Virus record (IMG/VR): IMGVR_UViG_3300046534_001152
Location: 1 to 27,154 of that record
Direction: 5' to 3' (one strand)
Origin: a virus
DNA: 27,154 nt
Both the position numbers and the translations under genes were made by a program. The stretch's first letter is position 1, and each line of letters begins with the position of its first letter. A model generated the notes under the pieces. The model made no database searches and was not told where the DNA came from. It saw nothing but the letters and a program-made list of their open reading frames with translations. Positions 6,015-15,882 of the stretch are shown piece by piece.

Positions 6015-6221
6015 TTAATTCTCAGGAGGCCAATAGTCCGGCCTAAGCTGTTCTTTTGTGAGATTGATGCCTTCATGTGCGTCGATCTGTAGCGCCCTCT
6101 TAGTGCCCACCTTAAGCTTTCCAGAGGCCCATTTCTGAACCGCGCCTTGTGTGCAGTCACCAAGCATGTTGGCAAATTCTGTTTGAGTGATGCCGTTTTC
6201 TTCTAAATATTTCTTTATCAT
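6015..6221 (-). CDS. Cro/YdaS-like DNA-binding protein
   Basis: The 68-residue product has a helix-turn-helix at about 10-35 (GITQTEFANMLGDCTQGAVQ, KWASG). It ends with INLTKEQLRPDYWPPEN, the C-terminal TxxxLRPD signature of Cro-like and YdaS-type proteins. It is the first gene of the leftward replication operon and faces a divergent AT-rich control region, as Cro does. The ATG lacks a clear ribosome site (AGGA is 13 nt upstream). A candidate promoter (TTTACA, 17 bp, TAGAAT on the minus strand, about 6256-6228) would start the transcript close to the ATG, perhaps nearly leaderless. Confidence 0.75.
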   Translation of the reverse strand: MIKKYLEENGITQTEFANMLGDCTQGAVQKWASGKLKVGTKRALQIDAHEGINLTKEQLRPDYWPPEN

Positions 6222-7503: not shown

Positions 7504-7629
7504 ATAAATTCAAGTCCCCAAGGTCACCTAGCACGGTACAAAACTGCACGGGTAGGGTTGGAGCAGATGGTAAGAAGCACTGCTAATATAAATGCTTTAT
7601 GATATTAAATAACAGAATTGGAGATAATC

Positions 7630-7857: not shown

Positions 7858-7877
7858 GCCAAAATCAAATAAAAACT

Positions 7878-7899
7878 AGAGGTAACTATGAAGCGCTGA
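7878..7899 (+). other. SD-led three-codon mini-ORF (M-K-R-stop)
   Basis: AGAGGT (7878-7883) is followed by ATG AAG CGC TGA at 7888-7899. Spacing is normal for initiation, yet the frame ends after three codons. It could be a minigene, or the start of a decayed gene: a +1 shift would continue as SADEEHITQSLQSTKK. Confidence 0.4.
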
Positions 7900-8063
7900 C
7901 GAAGAACACATAACACAAAGCTTACAATCAACTAAGAAGTGATTAGATTGGCTAAACAGATAAGCCAGAAGCCAAGATATCTGAAACCAAGAGGAAAGCA
8001 TATGCGCCCAACGACGTAGAAATACGACACATTTACGGGCTACATTTAGACAAATAAAAAGAT

Positions 8064-8092
8064 GTGAGCGGGATTGTTTAAGTCTCGCTCAC
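8064..8092 (+). repeat. 10-bp hairpin
   Basis: GTGAGCGGGA (8064-8073) pairs with TCTCGCTCAC (8083-8092) with one G-T wobble, leaving a 9-nt loop. The nearest T-run (about 8104) is 11 nt further on, so it is not a classical terminator. Confidence 0.7.
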
Positions 8093-8206
8093 TTCGAAAC
8101 TAGATTTTTAAATTGATTAGCGGTGTTGTAGAACATAGAAACACAAGACTAGAAATAAGCCGCAAATGAGCGCGGGGGAGAAGAAGATTAAATTCTGCTT
8201 ACTAAA

Positions 8207-8232
8207 TCAACGCTTCTAGGTTCGTGCGTTGA
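8207..8232 (+). repeat. 7-bp hairpin
   Basis: TCAACGC (8207-8213) and GCGTTGA (8226-8232) are perfect complements around a 12-nt loop in the same poorly coding stretch. Confidence 0.65.
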
Positions 8233-8338
8233 GGTTTCCTTAGAGTCAGGAATGGGTAGTTGAAAAACGAAACTCGAAAAGACGCGCTAGAGTAATGACT
8301 AGCCTAATCAATTTAACAATTTAAAAGCGAGATTTATC

Positions 8339-8563
8339 ATGAGCAAATATATAATACCTGTTCACATACAAACATCGGCAAGCACGGTAATAGGTGAGGT
8401 GGAATGCGACTCACTTGCTGATTTTAACGTGAAGGCGGAAGAGCTTTGGGAGAGCAAGGGCTACGATTACCCCTCAACAAATATTCATAACGACTTCGAT
8501 CTTTGTGATTGGGAGCTGTCGGAAATGAGTGAAGATGATTTAATCTACTACGAAGTGGTTTAG
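8339..8563 (+). CDS. small acidic hypothetical protein
   Basis: The 74-residue product starts with a beta-like stretch (YIIPVHIQTSASTVIGEVEC) and continues with an acidic C-terminus (DFDLCDWELSEMSEDDLIYYEVV). The ribosome site is weak (GCGAG). It resembles in composition several DNA-mimic-like small phage proteins, but this is only a charge observation and no family is recognised. Confidence 0.55.
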   Translation: MSKYIIPVHIQTSASTVIGEVECDSLADFNVKAEELWESKGYDYPSTNIHNDFDLCDWELSEMSEDDLIYYEVV

Positions 8564-8609
8564 GTTATTTTAATAAAATAGATAAGTATTAGCAGTTAAC
8601 AACAAAGAG

Positions 8610-8632
8610 AGGAGGTGATCATGTTTGACTAA
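8610..8632 (+). other. near-perfect Shine-Dalgarno before a three-codon ORF (M-F-D-stop)
   Basis: AGGAGGTGATC (8610-8620) matches the complement of the canonical bacterial 16S rRNA 3' end over 11 nt, the strongest ribosome site in the window. It is followed at once by ATG TTT GAC TAA (8621-8632). No long frame begins here. It resembles phage minigenes, whose short peptidyl-tRNAs can deplete tRNA, or a ribosome-loading or standby element for the gene at 8817. Confidence 0.6.
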
Positions 8633-8661
8633 TTAACCGAAGTAACACAATTTAACCCGTT

Positions 8662-8696
8662 CGCTACCCTCACCCGAAGCACCTTAAGGGGTAGCG
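8662..8696 (+). repeat. 8-bp hairpin after the M-F-D mini-ORF
   Basis: CGCTACCC (8662-8669) and GGGTAGCG (8689-8696) are perfect complements with a 19-nt loop, 30 nt after the mini-ORF stop. A weak AT-rich run follows but no clean T-tract. Confidence 0.65.
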
Positions 8697-8720
8697 GATT
8701 TAAAAGAGGTTTATTTGATT

Positions 8721-8783
8721 AATGTCGATAAGTGTCGCCTAACGCGAGAAATGCGGTTATGAATTAGGGCTTCATTCGACATT
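8721..8783 (+). ncRNA. candidate structured RNA element before the 8817 gene
   Basis: AATGTCG (8721-8727) and CGACATT (8777-8783) form a perfect 7-bp outer stem. Inside, GCCTAA can pair with TTAGGGC, or TAACGC with GCGGTTA, as alternative inner stems. The nested and mutually exclusive pairings suggest a leader RNA structure. It ends 33 nt before the next start codon. No known riboswitch or tRNA pattern is recognised. Confidence 0.4.
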
Positions 8784-8816
8784 ATTCAAATACATTTTAA
8801 CCGAGATGAGAATTAT

Positions 8817-9119
8817 ATGAAACCAAGCCAACTAGACCATATCGAAATGTCAGCAAAGGCCATTGAGCTTTTAGCAGACAAATACGCCGATGGATATCAT
8901 GAGTTATTTGCCGACATAGTGCATGGGCATGAAGAAACGTTTCTTCGATTTCTGGCCATCATGTCATCGTATAGAATTGCCAATCAAGACATGTCAAACG
9001 CTGGCCACGCGACGAATAAAATAGGCTGCTTGGAGTTGTGCCAAAAGCTAGAAGAAGAGCTTAGGCCTGATCTTAAAGACTTAATTGACGAAATGCTATT
9101 GAAAAAAACTGGAGAATGA
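8817..9119 (+). CDS. hypothetical helical protein
   Basis: The 100-residue product is predicted all-helical and acidic (AKAIELLADKYADGYHELFA; LELCQKLEEELRPDLKDLIDEM). The start has GAGATGAGA upstream. A structured, mini-ORF-containing leader of 253 nt (8564-8816) precedes it. Function unknown. Confidence 0.55.
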   Translation: MKPSQLDHIEMSAKAIELLADKYADGYHELFADIVHGHEETFLRFLAIMSSYRIANQDMSNAGHATNKIGCLELCQKLEEELRPDLKDLIDEMLLKKTGE

Positions 9120-9318: not shown

Positions 9319-9326
9319 CAAATAAC

Positions 9327-9421
9327 CCCGCTTAGCCAAATTCTTTTACTTAACAGCTTATGGAGCGATTAGTAGAGCATTTAAATTTTTGTTTAGCAAC
9401 AACGGCTAAGCGGGATTTTTT
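9327..9421 (+). terminator. long-loop hairpin with T-run (terminator or small RNA)
   Basis: CCCGCTTAGCC (9327-9337) and GGCTAAGCGGG (9404-9414) form a perfect 11-bp stem separated by 66 nt, followed by a TTTTTT run (9416-9421). A T-run after a GC-rich stem is terminator-like, but the loop is unusually long, so the segment may fold as a small RNA. It ends 5 nt before the ribosome site of the recombination genes and could gate their transcription. Confidence 0.55.
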
Positions 9422-11671: not shown

Positions 11672-11723
11672 GGGTTTACTTCATGCTGTAATATCTATAC
11701 TATTACAGCATGAAGTTTAACCC
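11672..11723 (+). repeat. very long hairpin (16-bp perfect core plus 5-bp base)
   Basis: ACTTCATGCTGTAATA (11678-11693) is the exact complement of TATTACAGCATGAAGT (11701-11716) around a 7-nt loop. Beyond a 1/2-nt bulge the arms continue as GGGTT (11672-11676) and AACCC (11719-11723). It sits 2 nt before the GAGAGGA ribosome site of the YopX-like gene. There is no T-run, so an operator, an RNase III site or a translational control hairpin is more likely than a terminator. Confidence 0.85.
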
Positions 11724-13156: not shown

Positions 13157-13508
13157 AAAAACATATTCAATGCCAGTGAACGCAATTGAAACATTAAAAG
13201 CCCTGCGTGATCGCGCCACGGTTAACAGGGGTGACTACCTCGGGATTGCTAGAGATCAAGACGCCTCGCGGTGTGGATCCTCTGGTGATGTCACTAGAGG
13301 TCTAGCCCTTGAGTGTGATGAAGAAATTACGGCCCTAACCGAGGCAATACAGGCGATTGATAAGGTATCGGCGATTCGAGAGCGGGTAGAAGAATTAAGG
13401 CCTTATGATTACTACAAGAGATATGATTCTGTGTCGATCGAGATAACCGAGTCAATTAAATCTGATTTGATCGCCTTCATGGAATCGCTATATAAGGTGG
13501 AGTCATGA
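13149..13508 (+). CDS. hypothetical helical protein
   Basis: Possible starts are ATG 13143 and GTG 13149; I prefer GTG 13149, which is 9 nt from GAGG (the ATG is only 3 nt away) and overlaps the previous stop. The product (about 119 residues) is helical (VNAIETLKALRDRATV; CDEEITALTEAIQAIDKVSA). No family recognised. Confidence 0.5.
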   Translation: MSEKTYSMPVNAIETLKALRDRATVNRGDYLGIARDQDASRCGSSGDVTRGLALECDEEITALTEAIQAIDKVSAIRERVEELRPYDYYKRYDSVSIEITESIKSDLIAFMESLYKVES

Positions 13509-14075: not shown

Positions 14076-14270
14076 ATGACGCTAGATTATTTTAAACAAG
14101 TAGTGAGCCATCTAGAAACCGAGTTCGGATGCAAAGGTAACAAAGAAATACTAGACGGCCCGTATCCCATGAGAATTAACGGGCAAACTGATATCGTCGT
14201 AATTGAAGGCGACAGTATCAGCGTGAATAACATAAGGCTAAAGCGGCCATTACTAAACAAGGTGAAATGA
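14076..14270 (+). CDS. small hypothetical protein
   Basis: The 64-residue product (MTLDYFKQVVSHLETEFGCK..., ending SVNNIRLKRPLLNKVK) has an N-terminal helix and a beta-rich second half (TDIVVIEGDSISVNNIRL). It overlaps the methylase start in an ATGA. Its tail carries the sequence ACTAAACAAGGTGAAAT, which reappears as a leader at 15247. Function unknown. Confidence 0.5.
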   Translation: MTLDYFKQVVSHLETEFGCKGNKEILDGPYPMRINGQTDIVVIEGDSISVNNIRLKRPLLNKVK

Positions 14271-15220
14271 TTATGACAATTGAAAGCAATAAATTCGAGC
14301 CTTGGCTAATGCACGGAGACTGCTTGATTGAAAGCGATAAAATAGAAAGCGGTAGTGTTGATTTAATATTGACCGACTTGCCTTATGGCAATATGAATAC
14401 AGACGGCGGCAGAAAGCTCGGCATTAACGGTTGGGATTTAGCAATAGATCCCAAAAAGGTTTATGAGATTGCAAACCGTATTTTAAGAAAAAACGGCAAG
14501 ATGATTTTATTTAGCCAAGAGCCCTACACAACTAAATTAATAACGGAAGCAATGCCGAACATGCCATTTAATTACAGGGCTACGTGGGAAAAAGATAACT
14601 TTGCAAACGCTTTAGGGGCTAAAGTCAATATGGTTTCTTTTACTGAGGATGTCTTAATATTTAGTAAAAGCGAAGATATAACCATCAATCCAATAAAGGA
14701 ATATACTAATAAAATTAGAGCTTTTATAAATAAAAAGAATTATGATATTTATGATGACTTTGAAGGTGCTGGGCTTAAAAAGTACGCTGTTTTAGATACT
14801 TTTAATAGCGATAAAGCAAGGAGATATAATTTTCATACTCTAGAAACTTATAATAATTTAATAGAATTGTATGGGATTGATAAAATGCAAGACTTCATGG
14901 ATTATCAAGATGCTTTTAAGATTTATACAGATTTTGAAGATGCAACATTAAGCACTTTTAATCTCTGGGAGGGGAAAAAGTACAAAAGCAATATCCTGAA
15001 GTATAAAAAGGATTACACGGGACACCACCCAACACAAAAGCCTGTGCTGCTTTTAGAGGACTTAGTGCAGACGTTTAGCAATGCGGACGATGTAGTTGTT
15101 GACCTAACAATGGGAAGCGGCTCAACTGGTCGAGCTTGCAAAAACGTGAACCGCAGATTCATCGGCATTGAGAAAGAAAAAGATTACTTTGAAATAGCAA
15201 AGAAGCGAATCAGCGAATAA
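14267..15220 (+). CDS. beta-type DNA N4/N6 amino-methyltransferase
   Basis: The 317-residue protein contains catalytic motif IV as DLILTDLPYGN (32-42; DLPY replaces the usual DPPY), FSQEPY (about 83-88), HHPTQKP (253-259) and motif I as VVVDLTMGSGSTG (276-288). Motif IV before motif I defines the beta group (N6_N4_Mtase fold). Residues about 140-240 form an AT-rich insert (NKIRAFINKKNYDIYDDFEG, YNFHTLETYNNLIELYG) that likely reads the DNA target. ATG 14273 is an alternative start with better spacing to AAGGTGA. No restriction gene is adjacent; protection from host restriction is the likely role. Confidence 0.8.
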   Translation: MIMTIESNKFEPWLMHGDCLIESDKIESGSVDLILTDLPYGNMNTDGGRKLGINGWDLAIDPKKVYEIANRILRKNGKMILFSQEPYTTKLITEAMPNMPFNYRATWEKDNFANALGAKVNMVSFTEDVLIFSKSEDITINPIKEYTNKIRAFINKKNYDIYDDFEGAGLKKYAVLDTFNSDKARRYNFHTLETYNNLIELYGIDKMQDFMDYQDAFKIYTDFEDATLSTFNLWEGKKYKSNILKYKKDYTGHHPTQKPVLLLEDLVQTFSNADDVVVDLTMGSGSTGRACKNVNRRFIGIEKEKDYFEIAKKRISE

Positions 15221-15227
15221 AACCAAC

Positions 15228-15242
15228 TAACCGCCCATAGGG
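15228..15242 (+). repeat. leader repeat TAACCGCCCATAGGG, copy 1
   Basis: This 15-nt element with the internal dyad CCC-ATA-GGG lies between the methylase and the 15267 gene. It is followed by ACTAAACAAGGTGAAAT, nearly identical to the leader of the methylase itself (14253-14269). Confidence 0.75.
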
Positions 15243-15266
15243 CATACTAAACAAGGTGAAATAATT

Positions 15267-15644
15267 ATGAATGTAGGTGAGTGGGTATTATTTTCTGATT
15301 TGGATTTAAGAGGCAACAAGCTGCCTCAATGCGAGATTGCCTTTGATGGCGGGGATATGCGGGTTTACTATTCACAATCCGAAGATGAAAACGGCTTTGA
15401 AGCTGCTTGTGTTGAGTTTGCGTCCTGTGCGGCGGGAGGCGATCACTGGCTATGCCCGCAATTAAGAGTGCAGGTAACGTTCAGAGCCATAGCCAGATTC
15501 GATGGTGTGAGGCATCTCCACTTCAATCACTACTCTAACGATGAGGATAATAAAGGGTATTTATACTATCCTTCAATCAAAGGTCTCCGCAAGGCGCTAA
15601 GTGCGCTAGAAAAGCTTGAAAAAAAATATTGCCGTGAAATTTGA
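15267..15644 (+). CDS. hypothetical protein
   Basis: The 125-residue product (MNVGEWVLFSDLDLRGNKLP...) has aromatic- and histidine-rich segments (GGDHWLCPQL; GVRHLHFNHYSNDEDNKGYL) and a C-terminal helix (IKGLRKALSALEKLEKKY). AAGGTGA precedes the ATG. It lies in a run of genes that share the TAACCGCCCATRGGG leader. Function unknown. Confidence 0.5.
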   Translation: MNVGEWVLFSDLDLRGNKLPQCEIAFDGGDMRVYYSQSEDENGFEAACVEFASCAAGGDHWLCPQLRVQVTFRAIARFDGVRHLHFNHYSNDEDNKGYLYYPSIKGLRKALSALEKLEKKYCREI

Positions 15645-15654
15645 AGATAGAAAC

Positions 15655-15669
15655 TAACCGCCCATAGGG
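15655..15669 (+). repeat. leader repeat TAACCGCCCATAGGG, copy 2
   Basis: Identical to copy 1 over 15 nt and flanked by ACTAACCG...GCATA in both places. It lies 12 nt before the ATG of the 15682 gene. Confidence 0.75.
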
Positions 15670-15681
15670 CATAGAGGAATC

Positions 15682-15870
15682 ATGAAAATAACAATTGAAA
15701 TCAAAAACCCGAGCGACAAGAAAGATATCTACTGGCTCTTTCATCGATTGCAGGAAATTAACGAGGGTACCGGAATATTGCTAACAGCAAAGCATAACAG
15801 CGGTGAAAAAAATGAGCACTACTTCGATGGCGATGGCGGACAGAGAATTAATGTTACTATAATCGATTAA
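15682..15870 (+). CDS. small hypothetical protein
   Basis: The 62-residue product starts with a beta strand (MKITIEIKNPSDKKDIYWLF) and ends GDGGQRINVTIID, suggesting a compact alpha/beta fold. AGAGGAA is an excellent ribosome site. Its stop lies within leader repeat copy 3. Function unknown. Confidence 0.55.
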   Translation: MKITIEIKNPSDKKDIYWLFHRLQEINEGTGILLTAKHNSGEKNEHYFDGDGGQRINVTIID

Positions 15871-15882
15871 CCGCCCATGGGG
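15868..15882 (+). repeat. leader repeat TAACCGCCCATGGGG, copy 3
   Basis: This copy differs from the others at one or two positions but keeps the CCCAT-GGG dyad. It begins with the TAA stop of the preceding gene and lies 13 nt before the next ATG. Confidence 0.7.

Follow-up and report, generated by a model that had tools for sequence, protein, structure and literature searches.

A six-codon mini-ORF with a strong Shine-Dalgarno (SD) site in the E. coli LEE4 (espADB) leader guards the mRNA against RNase E, a finding of Lodato et al. 2012 which is cited in PMC3997798 and described in PMC8708949. According to the latter source, occupancy of the SD by ribosomes suffices for this effect, whereas translation and the peptide are dispensable. 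Strong SDs also act as stabilisers in cryIIIA and other Bacillus leaders, even where a start codon is missing, and the same source states for E. coli that a bound ribosome gives poor protection at a distance (PMC3997798). For the two-codon minigene of axe-txe, located near the next start, protection of the mRNA in cis has been proposed and translation is required (PMC8708949). A phage precedent for an inhibitory minigene is lambda bar, a two-codon AUG-AUA-UAA unit (PMC8012679) with toxicity shown in Pth-deficient cells.

Here, we describe an orphan SD site followed by a three-codon frame in a virus record of 27,154 bases, which was analysed over its whole length and is called the window in the following. 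The record resembles a portion of a temperate-type phage, and no tRNA or tmRNA was found in it. The unit, referred to by the first position of its SD (8610), sits amid small ORFan genes of the rightward gene run and on the same strand as the coding sequences (Table 1). Searches of phage and plasmid sequences revealed no close relatives by DNA. The proteins encoded at 8817, 7630, and 24620 have no relatives in the viral contigs searched, and neither the 8817 protein nor the exonuclease has any in the bacterial genomes searched. By protein, only distant links (37-54% identity) were obtained, through the YqaJ exonuclease and the neighbour upstream of it; they lead to Klebsiella, Enterobacter, Pseudomonas, and Cellulophaga phages and to two to four viral contigs. 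The SD unit itself is absent from all six related records searched; one of the six has a 12/13 match, GGTGGTGATCATG, on the other strand.

Table 1. Features of the window and of the region around the orphan SD site.
Feature	Position	Strand	Remarks
Repressor-like gene	6015-6221	-	
Rightward gene run	~6.5 to 16.9 kb	+	mostly small genes, including YqaJ recombinase
Leftward genes	beyond 16.9 kb	-	mostly larger genes
Eleven-codon frame after GGAG	7567-7602	+	-7.0 kcal/mol, rank 89; chance level
ATG AAG CGC TGA after AGAGGT	7888-7899	+	-7.2 kcal/mol, rank 81; chance level
Gene-free gap with the 8610 unit	8564-8816	+	253 nt between two ORFans; from six-frame translation
Orphan SD site AGGAGGTGATC	8610-8620	+	complementary to the 16S 3' tail at all 11 nt
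Three-codon frame ATG TTT GAC TAA (Met-Phe-Asp)	8621-8632	+	ATG 8621-8623, TAA 8630-8632
Hairpin 3' of the mini-ORF	8659-8699	+	12 bp, no T run after it
Long stem	8712-8792	+	17-nt arms 8712-8728 and 8776-8792, 94% complementary; terminates immediately upstream of the 8817 gene's SD
Next downstream gene	8817-9119	+	100-aa ORFan, no Pfam match

The SD at 8610 is the sole 11-nt match to the anti-SD in the window, where the remaining matches are all of 7 nt, and its spacing to the ATG is ideal. As a measure of strength, the duplex energy between the 16S 3' tail and the 20 nt upstream of each ATG was calculated for both strands (n=948). The ATG at 8621 ranks first with -21.1 kcal/mol, followed by a runner-up at -17.2 (a gap of about 4 kcal/mol), and the SDs of the phage's own rightward genes range from about -2 to -10. 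Of 200 dinucleotide-shuffled versions of the window, only one contained an ATG of this strength. Exact anti-SD matches of at least 11 nt appeared in 29 of 1500 shuffles, and their combination with a start codon 3-9 nt past GGAGG in 6 of 1500. A second background of 636 non-coding short-ORF ATGs, taken from 1.10 Mb of other viral loci, contained three sites at -15 or stronger, of which two had been retrieved by the query SD pattern and the third lies within a terminator-like hairpin. Because of the ATG ranking, the shuffles, and this second viral background, the site is regarded as an outlier. Statistically, the oddity is real but solitary, and it is to be taken as ordinary unless contradicted by an experiment or a relative.

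The earlier note on this DNA had described strong SD sites, in the plural, leading into tiny ORFs. Its letters and coordinates for the 8610, 7888, and 7567 units proved correct on re-reading of the sequence, and the 8610 site indeed stands above chance. The plural fails, since the other two units rank so low (Table 1) and the window has 41 ATGs that combine a frame of at most 15 codons with an energy of at least -7 in strength, compared with 45.2 +/- 6.9 in shuffles. Both units fall outside the feature and require no explanation. For a possible 33-codon stop-free piece within 7858-8338, a database search gave no match.

The ATG at 8621 does not open a longer gene. Six-frame translation revealed no frame beyond about 30 codons, and a decayed or frameshifted gene at this position was rejected on these grounds; read-through of the TAA gains only 29 codons, and no alternative GTG or TTG start nearby yields a longer frame. 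In other viruses with the same 14 bases, apparent frames of 1 to 11 codons often conceal a GTG start located two bases further along (AUGUG), and in four of them (L010, L089, L094, and L131) this GTG opens a longer frame, unlike at 8621.

Across 2.9 million viral contigs, the exact SD with a three-codon TAA frame occurs five times in frame and four times in a control with the stop shifted by +1. Most of the five in-frame cases belong to longer genes: only one (L132) lies outside any long frame, and another (L129) is in an antisense long frame only. Thus, the SD with a three-codon frame is not a recurring or widespread viral module. Among the first 119 viral stretches listed as carrying AGGAGGTGATCATG, the majority of the sites precede ordinary genes, while 6 precede frames of at most 5 codons and 9 precede frames of at most 10. 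Nearly all of these short frames sit within longer ones, the exceptions being two six-codon frames in intergenic leaders (L070 and L121). In L070 (4480-4780), the same SD and ATG are accompanied by promoter-like sequence on the 5' side and, on the 3' side, by a strong hairpin that resembles a terminator and has a T run; this stretch, which has no match among phage records, is possibly a short autonomous RNA. In L121 (reverse strand, ~13210-13380), the same SD and ATG begin the frame MKKRIF, located after a terminator-like hairpin and before a recombinase-like gene. A match to the SD unit in L002 and L003 was discounted as part of a terminator-like hairpin.

The gap around the unit has an AT content of 64%, rising to 78% upstream of the SD (8564-8609). 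No Rfam model matches the gap, and no DNA match to it exists in the phages or plasmids searched. Of six folding windows, four left the SD largely unpaired (0.63-0.69), and the 400-nt (0.39) and 121-nt (0.32) windows did so to a lesser degree. No promoter was found close upstream of the unit, and thus the site probably stands within a long mRNA and not at its 5' end; promoter-like matches in the region number 5, compared with a shuffle mean of 9.3. Between the unit and the gene at 8817, no terminator-like site was found on the plus strand. The 8817 gene has a weak SD of its own (-5.1), and its start is the least accessible (0.22) among 21 gene starts tested. Translational coupling of the unit with this gene is disfavoured because the distance of 185 nt is too large.

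Several further repeats were observed in the window. Three inverted repeats, at 8101-8323, 8712-8792, and 9320-9421, are among the strongest in the window; they close structured stretches which stop 14-24 nt before the start codons of the genes at 8339, 8817, and 9436; these stems are possible processing or translation-control elements. Within the last of them, the arm GGCTAAGCGGG, after which six T stand, has two possible upstream partners, an arm at 9320-9337 and one at about 9387-9397, an attenuator-like alternative just before the 9436 gene (fold z-score -4). Between two rightward genes, at 11678-11716, lies an inverted repeat whose 16-bp arms match perfectly around a loop of 7 nt. The 22-nt intergenic sequence AACTAACCGCCCATAGGGCATA is present in two identical copies and a third at 80%, each near a gene start (15225-15246, 15652-15673, and 15858-15882), and two genes are preceded by copies, 96% identical, of a 26-nt ribosome-binding region, TACTAAACAAGGTGAAATRATTATGA (14251-14276 and 15245-15270). 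A tandem duplication of 8564-8700 and 8701-8816, suggested by two direct repeats with equal spacing, was rejected, as 20 of 300 shuffles score equally. A search for an element common to the intergenic regions gave no pairwise similarity clearly exceeding shuffles.

Our tentative preference is to read 8610-8632 as a genuine 30S-binding site which acts in cis within a long untranslated leader, as an mRNA shield comparable to that of LEE4. The early phage mRNA would carry a very strong 30S site in its AU-rich untranslated part, which is flanked by the genes at 8339 and 8817. Ribosomes would load at this site, make fMet-Phe-Asp at most, and then stop; with loading and an immediate stop, the site is proposed to be almost permanently occupied. 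An occupied site could shield the AU-rich leader in cis from attack of the RNase E type, and may also keep ribosomes near the 8817 gene with its weak and folded start. The peptide itself would be irrelevant.

The likeness to LEE4 consists in a strong SD and a tiny ORF, placed in a lengthy AU-rich untranslated segment ahead of a gene. The 8817 gene, on the same strand as the unit, may share its transcript. In contrast to the six codons, the mapped leader, and the demonstrated RNase E protection of LEE4, the present frame has three codons and a presumed leader, and occupancy of the site, protection of the mRNA, and a benefit to the 8817 gene are what we infer. With the cryIIIA STAB-SD and other 5' polypurine stabilisers (PMC3997798), the unit shares a strong SD that does not have to serve a gene; these stabilisers function in Bacillus hosts and at a processed 5' end. 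The axe-txe minigene provides a second example of a leader mini-ORF with a proposed protective role in cis, but differs in its need for translation and in its position near the next start, as 185 nt separate the 8610 unit from 8817. The L070 unit of an unrelated viral contig combines an identical SD and ATG with a tiny intergenic frame and a hairpin; its hairpin ends in a T run, which suggests a short RNA of its own, whereas the hairpin behind the 8610 frame does not. The poor protection at a distance in E. coli, taken together with the probably internal position of the site, counts against the stabiliser reading. Chance is a further counterweight which is not negligible, at about 0.4-0.5% per window for a best case picked out in the earlier note.

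Among the alternatives to a cis-acting ribosome site, two, a relic and chance, come close to it in likelihood. It is rather doubtful, though worth weighing, that the unit is the relic of a lost gene, i.e. the SD and start codon which a deletion left of a cargo gene, still binding ribosomes without a role. A foreign gene start might well have an SD so much stronger than those of the rightward genes, and the gap between two ORFans resembles an accessory region in which a hairpin persists behind the SD. However, no frame of more than about 30 codons in the gap looks like a gene remnant, no donor sequence was found in phage and plasmid DNA searches, and SD, spacing, and start are all intact, although decay would be expected without selection. 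A little less probable, and in our view unlikely, is a chance origin, i.e. an accidental match between the 16S tail and purine-rich non-coding sequence. The combination of match and start codon does arise in shuffled sequence, the unit was selected as the best item out of 27 kb, and the in-frame and control counts from the whole viral collection hardly differ. Against chance speak the single shuffle in 200 that attained this duplex energy and the ~1.1 Mb of other viral DNA without a comparable non-coding site, apart from those fetched by the pattern.

It is improbable that the unit is an inhibitory minigene in which abortive translation sheds fMet-Phe-Asp-tRNA-Asp and slows host protein synthesis in the manner of lambda bar. 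Like bar, it is a phage mini-ORF of very few codons with a UAA stop and a strong SD directly before the start codon, and both a strong SD and a UAA stop are reported to raise minigene toxicity (PMC8708949). The frame is not AUG-AUA-UAA, however: it has three codons instead of two, and toxicity drops with length (PMC8708949); its last sense codon is GAC in place of AUA, and neither AUA nor another known drop-off codon occurs. Furthermore, it is present as a single copy in an mRNA, and such units are not in excess in viral contigs. The earlier note had named both this mechanism and a ribosome-loading platform for downstream genes, and the putative cis role, as platform or stabiliser, fits the unit better. 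A broader idea, to which we assign still less weight, is a phage ribosome trap: a structured early RNA with a near-perfect anti-SD match and a three-codon frame would cycle ribosomes without making protein, either tying up host 30S subunits or stabilising phage mRNA, and would be in independent use by unrelated viruses (compare L070). Least credible of all is a function of the reverse strand as an antisense RNA whose GATCACCTCCT, identical to the 16S tail, could mask mRNA SD sites, since the 11-nt match, which can equally be taken on the minus strand, and a 9/12 promoter-like match at 8821-8794 on that strand are opposed by the low number of promoter-like matches in the region, by flanking genes on the plus strand, and by an ATG whose ideal distance from the SD would then be a coincidence.

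If the 8610 unit is a relic or a product of chance, it is a caution that strong SD sites without a gene occur and that sequence alone is no ground for the label "minigene". If instead the cis-acting site is occupied and protective, it would be a phage case of the mini-ORF stabiliser of a bacterial leader, and would offer an inexpensive part with which to hold an mRNA together.
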